The notes below the pieces were generated by a model. That model worked only from the letters and a program-made list of their open reading frames with translations, did no database searches and was not told where the DNA came from. The position numbers and the translations under genes are program-made. Positions 12,261 through 46,382 of a DNA stretch of 64,000 nt are shown one piece after another; positions within the stretch are counted from its first letter, which is position 1, and each line of letters opens with the position of its first letter. Origin of the DNA: an uncultured Lachnospiraceae bacterium (GTDB taxonomy: Bacteria; Bacillota; Clostridia; Lachnospirales; Lachnospiraceae); NCBI GenBank assembly GCA_900317555.1, contig ONHF01000003.1:82329-146328 (forward strand). The letters run 5' to 3'.

Positions 12261-12432
12261 TTCATGCAATATTGGCGGAACTCTGCGTACAGCATAGAAA
12301 ATTCAAGACGAATTGTGTGTGCGGGCGCATATTGCATAGAAAAAGGCAAAATCTATGCAATACGCGTCCGCTTTGCTAATATGTCTTGAATAATCTATGC
12401 AGGAAAGCAAGTCGCGCCGACATTGCATAGAA
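12261..12432. repeat. Nested palindromic element, copy 1
   Basis: A 172-bp region made of inverted repeats inside each other. From outside in: TTCATGCAAT (12261) with ATTGCATAGAA (12422); GCATAGA (12292-12298) with TCTATGC (12394-12400); ATTCAAGAC (12301-12309) with GTCTTGAAT (12383-12391); GCGGGCGCA with CGCGTCCGC; and TATTGCATAGA (12330-12340) with TCTATGCAATA (12352-12362). A second element with the same plan is at 29940-30104. It fits a non-coding palindromic repeat family of the MITE/REP kind. It occupies most of the 358-bp gap between the AbiEi gene and the HRDC gene. Confidence 0.8.
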
Positions 12433-12465
12433 ATGCGAGAAGAATCGCCGCGCGCCACCATGAAA

Positions 12466-29867: not shown

Positions 29868-29939
29868 AAATAATTGTGTTGCCGCGGCGGGCTGCTTGCA
29901 CGCTTGCAACGCTGTGTTGGCGACGAGGCATCCTGCCCT

Positions 29940-30104
29940 ATGCAATAGCGGCATTGCCCCGGAATTTGCCTGGAGAATTCAAGACGTTTGACAAGGCACG
30001 GAGCGTATTGCCTAAATTTGGGCCGAATTTAGGCAATACCGCGACGTGTGATAGAAATGTCTTGAAATTTTCATGCAAGAGGATGCAGTGACGGCGTATT
30101 GCAT
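29940..30104. repeat. Nested palindromic element, copy 2
   Basis: A 165-bp element with the same plan as the one at 12261-12432. Outer arms ATGCAATA (29940-29947) and TATTGCAT (30097-30104); middle arms ATTCAAGAC (29977-29985) and GTCTTGAA (30059-30066); inner arms GTATTGCCTAAATT (30005-30018) and its exact complement (30026-30039). The middle arms are identical in both copies while the inner arms differ in sequence but are kept complementary, which indicates that structure is conserved. Confidence 0.8.
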
Positions 30105-30373
30105 GAAAGCCTGGCCGATGTCCGGCCAATGCTCTGCCGATGCCTAGACAAATGCCCGGTGATGCAGCCTCGCTGCCTTGGCTCCTCCGCCCATAGGTGC
30201 CGGGTTGTTACCTTCGCTGCGGCGCGGTGGCCGGCTATTCCTCCTATACGAGAAAAATCTTGTTCAGATGACAGGCCAGTAGGCTCTCTTTCTCCGAAAT
30301 GCGTCTCTATTTGAGGAATTGTCCATCTTCAGGCAGATTTTCATTTGCGGAATGCTTGCGAAACAGCGTCTGC

Positions 30374-42783: not shown

Positions 42784-43607
42784 ATCGTCTCCTGTCATTT
42801 AAAGAAAAGGACACCTGGATTCACCGTCTGTCCGGTGTCACGAAGCTTTTGTTTTTCCTGCTCTGGTGCATTACAAGCGCGCTGACCTACGATACAAGAG
42901 TGCTGATCGCGATGATTATTATCAGTCTTACGATCTTTGTGATCTCGAAAACCGAGTGGAAGCAGGTCAGTACGGTGTTCAAGCTGGTGATGTTTTTCAT
43001 GGTCCTGAACGTCATCGCGATTTTCATAATGTCTCCGTATCAGGGCTGCGCAATTTACGGGAGCAAAACTATTCTCGCCCCATTCCTCCCCGGCCATGCG
43101 CTGACGCGGGAAGAGCTTTTCTATCTGTTTAATGTCGTCATCAAATATTTCACGGTGACGCCGGCGATCTTCATCTTTATGGTGACGACAGATCCTTCGG
43201 AATTCGCCGCGTCCATGAACGGCGTCGGTATTCCGTATTCGATTGCGTATTCGGTGGCGATCGCGCTGCGCTATATCCCGGATATTCAGGATGAATATCA
43301 TAAGATCAAAAACGCACAGGAAGCGCGCGGCATCGAAATGAGTGCAAAGGCGAAGCTCACAGACAGAATCCGGCGTACCTCGAGCATCATCTTTCCGCTA
43401 TTGTTCTCAACCATGGAGCGGATTGATGTCGTGAGCAATGCCATGGAGCTGCGCGGCTTCGGCAAGAAGAAAAAGAGAACCTGGTACGCGCATAAGGATC
43501 TGCGTCTTGCAGATTATCTGGTGATTGTGTTCACGGTTGTGTTCTGCGTGGCAGCGCTGGTGCTGACGTTTGCGGACGGGAACCGGTTCTGGAATCCGTT
43601 CGGGTGA
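42780..43607 (+). CDS. ecfT: ECF transporter transmembrane component EcfT
   Basis: A 275-residue membrane scaffold that couples the S component to the ATPases. About five or six membrane helices, plus two coupling-helix motifs: A-Q-E-A-R-G-I-E, and A-M-E-L-R-G-F-G (the Ala-Arg-Gly-type motifs of T components). Its ATG overlaps the ATPase stop codon. Confidence 0.88.
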   Translation: MNRLLSFKEKDTWIHRLSGVTKLLFFLLWCITSALTYDTRVLIAMIIISLTIFVISKTEWKQVSTVFKLVMFFMVLNVIAIFIMSPYQGCAIYGSKTILAPFLPGHALTREELFYLFNVVIKYFTVTPAIFIFMVTTDPSEFAASMNGVGIPYSIAYSVAIALRYIPDIQDEYHKIKNAQEARGIEMSAKAKLTDRIRRTSSIIFPLLFSTMERIDVVSNAMELRGFGKKKKRTWYAHKDLRLADYLVIVFTVVFCVAALVLTFADGNRFWNPFG

Positions 43608-43679
43608 GGCTGCGCGCGGTTCTATGATATAGTAATATAAAATTCATTTTTCCGAAGACATACAATAGAGGTCCCGAAC

Positions 43680-45347
43680 TTGAATACCCGCAAACTGACC
43701 AGCCGCAAAATATCTGCAGCAATACTCGCTATCGTCATAGCCTTACAGATTCTGCTTGTATTTCATGTGCAGAAAACCGTCGTAAATAACAATGACGGCA
43801 TCTTCACCTTTACATTGTCGAATACACCTTATAGCTACAACTATATTGATCATATGTACAAGCGTTTTCCTCTTGGTGAGAACGGCTGGCTCTCCGGAGA
43901 ATTTCTTCGCAGCAATTATATGGTCGAAACTGCTGACAGGTTTGATTATAGTGCTGTCTATTTCCATCAGCGACTGGATAACCACCCTCTCCTGTACTAC
44001 TCTCTGGTTCACACAATCTGCTCGTTTTTCCCCGAAACCTATTCGGTGCAGTACGCACTTGTAATCAACCTGTTCGGTATGCTCGGGATTGACACTGTCT
44101 TGATTCTGCTGTCCCGGAAACTCTATCACGCCGGGGCTTTTGCTCTCATCCCCATCGCCGGTATGTCGCTGATCTCCGCATTTCTCGATCTTTATACGCT
44201 GCCGAGAATGTACACCTTGCTTGCGTTCATGACACTCTGGTACCAGTATCTCCAGCTGTCATTCCAGACAAGGAATGTTTTGCGAAAATCCGATTATATT
44301 CTGATGACTGTCTGTGTTTTTCTCGGAACGCAGACGCACTATTATTTCTATGTATATGCTTTCTTTGCTTCCCTGATAACTGCAGTCATCCTCATCAGAA
44401 AGCACCGGCTTCTGAGACTGATCAATTATATCTGCGCCGGAATCAGCGGTATCTGCATGTCAGTCATCCTGTTCCCCTGGGTCGTCTGGCACATTCTGTA
44501 CAATCAGATGGACAAACATACCAATGTGCAGGGCTGGTCACTGCAAGGCATGAAAGAATACATTTCTTTTGTCAATAAAGCTGCGTTCAACGGTCATTTT
44601 GTAAGAATGCTGATTGTTTTCGGAGTCATCGCAGCAGCAGTGAAGGTTATTGATGTGGCAAAACAGAAAAGCGGTTCACAGTCAATTTCAGAAGCGGGAA
44701 GCCGTCTCTGCGCAGATTACCAAAAATATCTCGCCGGAATATTCCTCACCGGAGTTTTATATTCCGTTGTAATCTTTACACTGGATGGCGGTAACTGGTA
44801 TTACGAAACCGGTATGTATCTGCCATTCCTGATCTGTTTGAGCGCAGTGGCAGCATTTCTTGGACAAAGCGTGTCTGACCGTCTCTTTTTAATGAACAGC
44901 GTGGAGGACAAAAAATCCAAGGCATCTCCCGGGGCCAGCACTTTCAATGGCGTGCTTGTTTCTCTCTTTATCATCGTTGTCATCCTAGGGACTTCCTCTG
45001 TCCGGGATAATATCTGTTCCCGTTCTGCCGCTTTCCGGCAGTCAGAAGTTTTTCATATGATTCCGGACAGGTATGCTGCCAGTGCCTGCATTTACATAGA
45101 AGAAAAGCAGGATAATCTGCTGTCTAATCTTCTGCTGGATGTTTCCCGCTATGCTGAGTTCAAGAAGATCACTGCAGACGACTATCGTTCTCATGGGCTG
45201 ACAAAGGCAGATATCGCAGGGAAAACAGCTGCCGGTCCCGTCATCCTCTACATCCCCTCGGAGCTATCAGTCAAAGAAATCAAAGGAAAAACCGAACTTC
45301 TCGCAGCAGACGGAGCATTTAACATAATACGTTGGGATGCGGAATAA
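43680..45347 (+). CDS. GT-C type membrane glycosyltransferase (PMT/GT39-like)
   Basis: A 555-residue protein with about 10-12 membrane segments. After the first helix comes an extracellular loop containing R-L-D-N-H-P-L-L-Y-Y, which matches the acidic D/E-x-H-P-P-L-Y-Y-type loop of polyprenyl-phosphate-sugar dependent GT-C enzymes. The soluble C-terminal region (about 440-555) follows. It likely transfers a sugar to a surface polymer or protein. The start is TTG at 43680 behind GAGGT. The gene is AT-richer than its neighbours and stands alone between a -10-like TATAGT and a terminator (45355-45384), which suggests later acquisition. Confidence 0.75.
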   Translation: MNTRKLTSRKISAAILAIVIALQILLVFHVQKTVVNNNDGIFTFTLSNTPYSYNYIDHMYKRFPLGENGWLSGEFLRSNYMVETADRFDYSAVYFHQRLDNHPLLYYSLVHTICSFFPETYSVQYALVINLFGMLGIDTVLILLSRKLYHAGAFALIPIAGMSLISAFLDLYTLPRMYTLLAFMTLWYQYLQLSFQTRNVLRKSDYILMTVCVFLGTQTHYYFYVYAFFASLITAVILIRKHRLLRLINYICAGISGICMSVILFPWVVWHILYNQMDKHTNVQGWSLQGMKEYISFVNKAAFNGHFVRMLIVFGVIAAAVKVIDVAKQKSGSQSISEAGSRLCADYQKYLAGIFLTGVLYSVVIFTLDGGNWYYETGMYLPFLICLSAVAAFLGQSVSDRLFLMNSVEDKKSKASPGASTFNGVLVSLFIIVVILGTSSVRDNICSRSAAFRQSEVFHMIPDRYAASACIYIEEKQDNLLSNLLLDVSRYAEFKKITADDYRSHGLTKADIAGKTAAGPVILYIPSELSVKEIKGKTELLAADGAFNIIRWDAE

Positions 45348-45354
45348 ATAAAAA

Positions 45355-45384
45355 ACTGCAGCAATTCATTTCGAATGCTGCAGT
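45355..45384 (+). terminator. Terminator after the glycosyltransferase gene
   Basis: ACTGCAGC (45355-45362) pairs with GCTGCAGT (45377-45384), extended by ATTC/GAAT inside, loop ATTTC. CACACTTTTAC follows. It lies 8 bases after the stop. Confidence 0.7.
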
Positions 45385-45411
45385 CACACTTTTACTGTAA
45401 GAGGTATAAGC

Positions 45412-45705
45412 ATGAAAAGTCATGTAGAATCTGATTCAAATACTCTTCAATTCAGTTACCAGGATGTTTTTTATGAGTATCTGCCATATGGGGTAGTGCT
45501 CCTGCTCGTCTTTGCCGCAGCCGGAAGTTTTCTTGGCGCGACATATGAAAGCCATCTGCCTCTGGTCGGCGGAAGTGAAAGTCTCCTGCCCGCGAGTATG
45601 CAAAATCGCTGGTATAATTTTGCTGGTGCCGGGGCAGGCGCCGCAGCCGGTTTTATCTTCTATGCACTGATTGTTATCCTGCTTCGCCGATTAAAGAACC
45701 GCTGA
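45412..45705 (+). CDS. Small two-helix membrane protein, unknown
   Basis: A 97-residue protein of no recognised family. A hydrophilic start (residues 1-23) is followed by two hydrophobic helices (about 26-45 and 68-90), the second Gly/Ala-rich (A-G-A-G-A-G-A-A-A-G-F), and a basic end, R-R-L-K-N-R, that should stay in the cytoplasm. AGAGGT precedes the ATG. It lies after the terminator of the glycosyltransferase and convergent with the next gene. Confidence 0.6.
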   Translation: MKSHVESDSNTLQFSYQDVFYEYLPYGVVLLLVFAAAGSFLGATYESHLPLVGGSESLLPASMQNRWYNFAGAGAGAAAGFIFYALIVILLRRLKNR

Positions 45706-45731
45706 TACACCCTGTTTCAATATACAAGTGG

Positions 45732-46382
45732 TTACTCCGCCGTCTTCCCGAAACAGTCCTGCCCGAACCGCACCTTTGCATACGCGATGATCTCCTCCAC
45801 GGTTCCTTCAAAGCCAAGCCTTGAAGAATCCAGACAAAGGTCATAATTTCGCGCATCATACCAAGTCTGGCCGGTATGATACTCATAATACGCGGCCCTG
45901 TGACGGTCGGTCTGCTCAATGAATTTCTCGAGCTCTTTCCCGCGCATCGGCTGCTTCTTAGCCGCCTGCTCCATCAGAAAATCCATCGGCGCATGGACAA
46001 AACAACGCACAGAATGATCGCAGTCCTTCAAAATATAGTCCGCGCAGCGGCCGACAATCACACACGACTCTGTCTGCGCCAGTTTCTTGATGATCTCCGC
46101 CTGATAATTGAACAGGTTCTCCTCCGACGTGAAATCTCTGTTGTCCGGTGAAAGAAGCTGTCCGGAGTATACGTTCTTCGCGATTCTCGCAAGCGGGCTG
46201 AGCGTCTTTACATTCTCATCGGCCTTTACGAACATGCGCTCGGAAATGCCGCTCTCCTCTGCCGCGAGCTTCATCAGCTCCTTGTCATAATAGTGGATGC
46301 CAAGTCTCTCCGCCAGCATATTTCCGACAGTCCGTCCGCCGGAGCCATACTGACGGGCAATGGTGATCACGATATTCTTCAT
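45732..46382 (-). CDS. Cytidylate-kinase-like protein
   Basis: A 216-residue P-loop protein of the cytidylate kinase-like family common in Clostridia. The N-terminal I-A-R-Q-Y-G-S-G-G-R-T-V-G is a P-loop-like motif in which the canonical G-x-x-G-x-G-K-(S/T) is modified; H-Y-Y-D-K-E-L and the Asp-Arg rich lid region R-G-K-E-L-E-K then D-R-H-R-A-A-Y-Y-E-Y-H follow. It may not be the housekeeping CMP kinase, since its substrate in these family members is not established. ATG at 46382 with GGGGGAAAG. It follows livF on the same strand. Confidence 0.8.
   Translation of the reverse strand: MKNIVITIARQYGSGGRTVGNMLAERLGIHYYDKELMKLAAEESGISERMFVKADENVKTLSPLARIAKNVYSGQLLSPDNRDFTSEENLFNYQAEIIKKLAQTESCVIVGRCADYILKDCDHSVRCFVHAPMDFLMEQAAKKQPMRGKELEKFIEQTDRHRAAYYEYHTGQTWYDARNYDLCLDSSRLGFEGTVEEIIAYAKVRFGQDCFGKTAE

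Follow-up and report, generated by a model that had tools for sequence, protein, structure and literature searches.

A lineage-restricted 169-bp palindromic repeat carrying six oriented motif copies, frequently located near gene 3′ ends in two Lachnospiraceae species

The window analysed here, a stretch of 64,000 nt on contig ONHF01000003.1 of an uncultured Lachnospiraceae bacterium, contains two intergenic palindromic elements. The first lies between the 3′ end of an HRDC-domain gene and the start of the next gene, and the second lies between two convergent genes. Both are present where the original prediction had located them (12261-12432 and 29940-30104), and in a covariance model derived from 17 copies they span 12262-12430 and 29938-30106, each being 169 bp long, on the + strand and in the same frame. 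The features of the two elements are as follows.

12262..12430, + strand: element copy 1, full length (169 model positions); model R1, 164.3 bits, E 2.9e-31
12264..12271, - strand: copy 1 arm a1 ATGCAATA (motif TATTGCAT reversed), outer left; sequence and column conservation in 49 copies
12291..12298, + strand: copy 1 arm a2 AGCATAGA, middle left; sequence and column conservation in 49 copies
12302..12309, + strand: copy 1 TTCAAGAC, middle left; sequence and alignment of copies
12330..12340, + strand: copy 1 arm a3 TATTGCATAGA, inner left; sequence, exact motif match
12352..12362, - strand: copy 1 arm a4 TCTATGCAATA, inner right; sequence, exact motif match
12383..12390, - strand: copy 1 GTCTTGAA, middle right; sequence and alignment of copies
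12394..12401, - strand: copy 1 arm a5 TCTATGCA, middle right; sequence and column conservation in 49 copies
12421..12430, + strand: copy 1 arm a6 CATTGCATAG, outer right; sequence and column conservation in 49 copies
29938..30106, + strand: element copy 2, full length (169 model positions); model R1, 146.3 bits, E 1.5e-27
29940..29947, - strand: copy 2 arm a1 ATGCAATA, outer left; sequence and column conservation in 49 copies
29967..29974, + strand: copy 2 arm a2 TGCCTGGA, middle left; sequence and column conservation in 49 copies
29978..29985, + strand: copy 2 TTCAAGAC, middle left; sequence and alignment of copies
30006..30038, unstranded: copy 2 inner palindrome TATTGCCTAAATTTGGGCCGAATTTAGGCAATA (arms a3 and a4); sequence, RNA and DNA folds
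30059..30066, - strand: copy 2 GTCTTGAA, middle right; sequence and alignment of copies
30070..30077, - strand: copy 2 arm a5 TTCATGCA, middle right; sequence and column conservation in 49 copies
30097..30106, + strand: copy 2 arm a6 TATTGCATGA, outer right; sequence and column conservation in 49 copies

As had been claimed, the middle arms (ATTCAAGAC/GTCTTGAA) are identical in the two elements, the outer arms (ATGCAAT/ATTGCAT) match, and the inner arms (TATTGCATAGA..TCTATGCAATA in copy 1, TATTGCCTAAATTTGGGCCGAATTTAGGCAATA in copy 2) differ in sequence and are each self-complementary. The spacings, described as similar, are so and in fact identical. Relative to dinucleotide shuffles, copies 1 and 2 fold much more stably, both as RNA (z -9.5 and -9.0, respectively) and as DNA (z -7.5 and -6.0), and a family with a fixed plan beyond chance is supported. 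Promoter and terminator scans at the two copies revealed no promoter-like site inside the element and gave counts near the shuffled means. Compared with its orthologous copy in the sister species, hereafter G004, copy 1 is 93% identical and copy 2 is 89% identical.

The original prediction spoke of a two-copy family, which is incorrect: the model found 23 distinct places in the own genome (G000, 87% complete) at E<=1.2e-5, spread over many contigs, and at least 40 copies in G004 (in 32 stretches covering 345 kb of about 2.5 Mb). Two own-genome DNA searches listed 28 and 13 matches, both strands counted, the best non-self matches having E values of 1e-41 and 1.2e-51. Because both these searches and the model gave more copies, a genome holding only the two, the outcome proposed as evidence for chance or local duplication, is not what is found. 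Additional partial copies are present at C27:63709, C32:25067 and C23:32660, among others, and such copies are under-counted because the model favours full-length matches.

Next to this abundance stands a narrow distribution. Across 62 genomes belonging to the genus, the model matched only the own genome and G004 and none of the other 60, and the same two genomes were the only ones matched among 61 genomes comprising 37 from the genus and 24 from other families of the order. Among 397 genomes sampled evenly across the family, only the own genome was matched and the 396 others were without the repeat; the larger genome scans used stricter filters with few candidates scored per genome, so that weak relatives could be missed. 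An exact-pattern scan of genome contigs returned 13 stretches, 4 of which hold the element according to the model (all from the JAQXUQ01 series, isolate SUG1538), and the model finds the element absent from the other 9; neither of two viral-contig stretches with the arm pattern matches the model. The listings returned by our literature searches contain no description of a ~169-bp six-arm family. Among the species scanned, the repeat family is confined to two.

The family is rigid in length and plan. Of 63 copies, 49 are exactly 169 bp long, with 7 at 170 bp, 3 at 168, 2 at 167, and one each at 166 and 160, so that 59 fall within 168-170 bp. In the 49 copies of exactly 169 bp, position i of an arm has position 170-i as its partner, and six arms of alternating orientation start near positions 3, 29, 69, 91, 133 and 160. 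All six arms carry one motif with the consensus TATTGCATRGA (R being A or G) and the core TTGCAT. Between the arms lie TTCAAGAC at 41-48, GTCTTGAA at 122-129, variable spacers and a GC-rich stem. The ends are terminal inverted repeats, with outer arms TATTGCAT paired across the element at 76.9% Watson-Crick over positions 1-10 in the 49 copies. The exact motif is present 32 times in the own genome (28 occurrences in model copies, 2 in partial ones and the remaining 2 elsewhere), while G004 has 58; four genomes of the genus without the repeat family contain it 2, 0, 1 and 0 times, and the reversed motif, used as a control, occurs 0 and 1 times in the two host genomes. The element is short, at about 169 bp, and non-coding, no reading frame being open in more than 14 of the 49 copies. 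Rickettsia palindromic elements are coding elements, and a coding element of this kind was rejected for the present repeat since no frame is consistently open. In one subfamily, the copies have in common a GGAAGGAATCGCCGC-like right extension in their right flanks (for example at 12431-12460 of the window) and a GCGCGGCTTGCTT-like left extension, which suggests a longer original unit.

We examined the gene context of the repeat using our own crude codon-score gene finder, taking a single copy from each locus and considering neighbouring genes up to 1000 bp away. For the 39 of 46 loci that could be typed, 14 copies are in tandem gaps in sense with the upstream gene, 4 in tandem gaps in antisense, 13 between convergent genes and 8 between divergent genes. 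The excess of sense over antisense (14:4, p 0.031) becomes 11:3 (p 0.057) within 300 bp, where 10 copies are convergent and 2 divergent. Furthermore, the left gene points towards the element in 27 of the 39 typed loci (p 0.024). An earlier and stricter gene finder, applied to all copies, gave 25 sense tandem, 5 antisense tandem, 20 convergent and 6 divergent. For gaps of 150-1200 bp, 18 of 52 with an element are convergent compared to 10 of 96 without (Fisher p 0.0007), a comparison in which the element itself lengthens the gaps and length is uncontrolled. The proposed location at gene ends is supported by the sense tandem and convergent counts, and overall the copies have a modest bias towards gene 3′ ends.

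The original prediction also held that pairing is conserved with changed sequence, and we compared pairing within each copy to pairing between halves swapped among copies. This part of the claim stands for the GC stem and the inner helix, which exceed the swap controls, and does not stand for the outer and core middle arms. For the GC stem, the mean is -12.5 kcal/mol within a copy against -8.5 with swapped halves (better in 54 of 63 copies) and the best register has 8.78 Watson-Crick pairs compared to 7.46, a value that none of 2000 permutations reached, while singly the stem beats 95% of swaps in only 5 of 49 copies. Watson-Crick pairing reaches 85.7% in the inner helix compared to 80.3% (sd 1.3) with swapped halves, and 42.0% compared to 32.5% at loop positions. 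The corresponding values across the 49 copies are 76.9 and 79.9% for the outer arms, and 83.1 and 82.8% as well as 83.7 and 84.2% for the middle arms, none of which exceeds the swaps. In the 17 own-genome copies, we found 20 cells in 7 pairs that changed on both sides, mostly in the inner helix and the inner foot of the middle helix; this number of cells was reached by 0 of 500 shuffles and the number of pairs by 55 of 500, and kinship within subfamilies can inflate such double-change counts. Stem comparisons between orthologues, counted both ways, number 301, of which 266 are unchanged, 17 mismatched, 9 GT, 7 AC and 2 compensated. Covariation across copies together with 2 compensated comparisons in 301 indicates that the palindrome is genuine and persisted through old changes, with little compensation since the two species split. 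The covariation of the inner helix fits a hairpin, of DNA or RNA, as well as it fits a binding array.

Orthologous copies in two species make constraint measurable site by site. The 34 full-length G004 copies have a mean identity of 61%, with 87% in the arms and 38% in the spacers. Within the G004 stretches fetched, 17 of the 23 own-genome copies have a flank that matches the neighbourhood of a G004 copy. At one of these loci (L141/L102) the two species hold different copies that are 60% identical, indicating that the family is not wholly static and leaving 16 orthologous pairs. The rate test used 14 pairs, omitting the L141/L102 pair and two with a truncated G000 copy; two of the 14 (L138:16380/L089 and L133/L107) were matched closely by one flank only. 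We found changes at 42 of 1011 arm sites (4.2%), 58 of 560 GC stem sites (10.4%), 99 of 560 spacer sites (17.7%) and 24 of 154 loop sites, compared to 657 of 2022 sites in the 80-bp flanks (32.5%), a divergence possibly overstated where these flanks are not truly orthologous; shuffled 80-mers, as a control, gave 59% mismatches. The elements contain 2 gap columns, whereas the flanks have 436 in 2458, and the spacers thus change without gaining or losing bases. At orthologous sites, the elements therefore change more slowly than their flanks, which argues that the copies are maintained. That exact length and layout are kept while the adjacent DNA changes suggests that the repeats probably still do something. 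The orthologue is the closest G004 copy in 10 of 11 pairs examined, and in 8 of 11 it also outranks every paralogue when spacers alone are considered; conversion between copies is thus possible at some loci.

Collectively, these observations lead us to favour, with a probability of about 0.42, the reading that a mobile-derived repeat is now selected at the DNA level as a palindromic array of sites for a postulated protein, frequently in the vicinity of gene 3′ ends. Under this hypothesis, a lineage-specific interspersed repeat of ~169 bp would have entered or arisen in the common ancestor of the two species, spread to dozens of intergenic sites, and then been kept in place by selection on DNA. 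The selected unit would be a dyad in which six oriented TATTGCATRGA motifs and an inverted TTCAAGAC pair surround, with fixed spacing, a pairing GC-rich core. Most plausibly, the motifs would be bound cooperatively by a DNA-binding protein, be it the former mobilising enzyme or one of the host, which would need the exact spacing and dyad symmetry; the centre of the repeat could possibly be extruded as a hairpin. Fixed spacing combined with free spacer sequence is the pattern expected of an array of protein-DNA sites.

An alternative is that the repeat is a plain selfish MITE, a non-autonomous element with a transposase encoded elsewhere, whose length would reflect what the enzyme can move and which would have no host function. 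We regard this as possible and on the unlikely side. It accounts for the inverted ends, the absence of a conserved reading frame noted above, the dozens of dispersed copies in two species only, the G004 copies at sites where G000 has none or a remnant only, and the locus with different copies in the two species. Yet we obtained no evidence for the transposase mobilisation suggested by the original prediction. We found no consistent target duplication in the 63 copies, the best of 7623 combinations of end offsets and lengths giving 8 against 2.0 expected, and for this reason the repeat is not filed as a MITE; target duplications can fade with age, according to an excerpt of PMC10969869. Likewise no clean empty site was seen, as the two G004 copies without a trace in G000 correspond to sites where some 320 and 380 bp are gone, flanks included; two other G004 copies survive in G000 as partial copies. 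The transposase search, for the Y1 family PF01797, gave 0 matches in G000 and G004. Moreover, orthologous copies keep arms and spacing while their flanks drift, which is unexpected of a dead insertion. As to a parent insertion sequence with matching ends, an arm-pattern search of both hosts gave mostly known copies and some partial ones, in an own genome that is 87% complete. We infer a mobile origin, and spread by an extinct or unsearched enzyme is likely, if unproved.

Several individual loci bear on the history of the repeat. In G004, two direct copies at L106:5033-6447 flank an ORF of 261 codons; G000 lacks about 1.4 kb that includes this ORF and retains part of the second copy. At L107:5165-7603, also in G004, a region of about 2.4 kb surrounding a second direct copy is nearly devoid of long ORFs and has a decayed appearance, and most of it is missing from G000. 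Two nearly identical copies lie 272 bp apart at L108:4954-5394, with a left flank sequence common to the L105 and L123 copies, so that some of the spread carried flanking DNA. For L120 and L142, the orthologous copy in G000 has kept its outer parts and lost its centre, an internal deletion. The G004 copy at C17:86998 is contained in about 416 bp between matched flanks, in place of which the window has 2.1 kb (43607-45733) holding an ORF of 555 codons (43680-45347) that reads like a membrane protein. PF01797 itself has 4 matches in G015 and 2 in G018, two members of the genus without the repeat in the model scans.

It is also possible, although on the unlikely side, that the repeat acts as RNA, being transcribed in the 3′ untranslated region of the upstream gene as one long hairpin that affects mRNA processing or decay. 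The fold of 60 of 63 copies has a z below -4 relative to mononucleotide shuffles, the inner helix and GC stem pair beyond the swap controls, and the gene context described above, with tandem-gap copies 14:4 in sense per locus and element gaps often convergent, is consistent with such a role. About half of the B. cereus bcr repeats are in mRNA and REPs are reported downstream of genes, as stated in extracts of PMC3446304 and PMC3733652, respectively. If the + strand were read as RNA, it should tolerate GT more than AC. This is the case at positions 49-56 (GT 60, AC 23), which favours RNA read from the + strand, and the pair 49-121 is mostly G-T on this strand (27 of 49 copies). The four arm regions, however, have no such asymmetry (GT 100 vs AC 120), and neither do orthologues to any extent (GT 9 vs AC 7, with 2 of 301 compensated). 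Furthermore, we found no strand preference in RNA stability, the + strand being better in 36 of 63 copies and the - strand in 27 (p 0.35), and the + strand being more stable in 20 of 40 copies in G004 alone. The outer and core middle arms do not covary, and no Rfam family scored above its gathering threshold anywhere in the window. Selection acting on RNA pairing along the entire hairpin was rejected as the main claim, as wobble and strand asymmetry are absent, although the inner helix does covary. Since the arms have no wobble asymmetry and the two strands are equally stable as RNA, we read the constraint as mainly at the DNA level, a reading that falls short of proof.

That the two palindromes result from chance resemblance or local duplication has nothing in its favour and practically no standing, and was rejected because DNA searches and the model gave dispersed copies in two genomes, at 23 own-genome places (E<=1.2e-5, many contigs) and 40 in G004.

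From the partial accounts available to us, bcr and other MITE-like intergenic repeats are the described kind that comes closest. Bcr1 is 167 bp long with an average of 39 bcr1 per strain in the excerpts of PMC6542083, PMC3446304 and PMC2267715, and the bcr1/bcr repeats of the Bacillus cereus group are, as outlined there, likewise from Bacillota, 100-400 bp, lineage-restricted, intergenic, present in tens of copies, foldable and MITE-like. In contrast, bcr mobility is tied to a TTTAT motif (PMC6542083, in extract) and nothing similar is found at the ends of the present repeat, whose six-fold motif array is also absent from those bcr descriptions, a comparison made by description. The Correia, ERIC, RUP and BOX MITEs are, in the excerpt of PMC10969869, similarly short, non-coding, intergenic inverted repeats forming a stable stem-loop if transcribed; for the present repeat, however, no target duplication was found, nor any parent transposon in the arm-pattern and PF01797 searches, and orthologous copies look constrained. 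REP/BIME sequences resemble it as extragenic palindromes found mainly downstream of genes and between convergent genes (PMC3733652, in extract). Unlike the REPs associated with RAYT (Y1), given as 20-40 bp in partial descriptions, it spans about 169 bp and neither host has a Y1 transposase (PF01797); inspection by eye of the printed copies showed no GTAG or CGTC tag at the ends.

Taken together, the array of DNA-level protein sites remains our preferred reading, and because the repeats often sit close to the 3′ ends of genes, they may affect read-through transcription or local DNA structure; we infer a role at gene ends on this basis. In a bolder version, to which we assign a low probability, the repeats would be docking sites of identical geometry across the chromosome for a DNA-binding protein confined to the two species, six motifs on a dyad lying mainly behind genes. 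What was once a mobile element would then serve as an architectural or transcription-boundary element, the protein having been selected along with it. Intergenic repeats of bacteria are usually classed as mobile debris in decay. Our reading, if true, would offer a mobile-type repeat recruited into host DNA architecture as a case open to testing, and its short motif could be used to pull down the protein.
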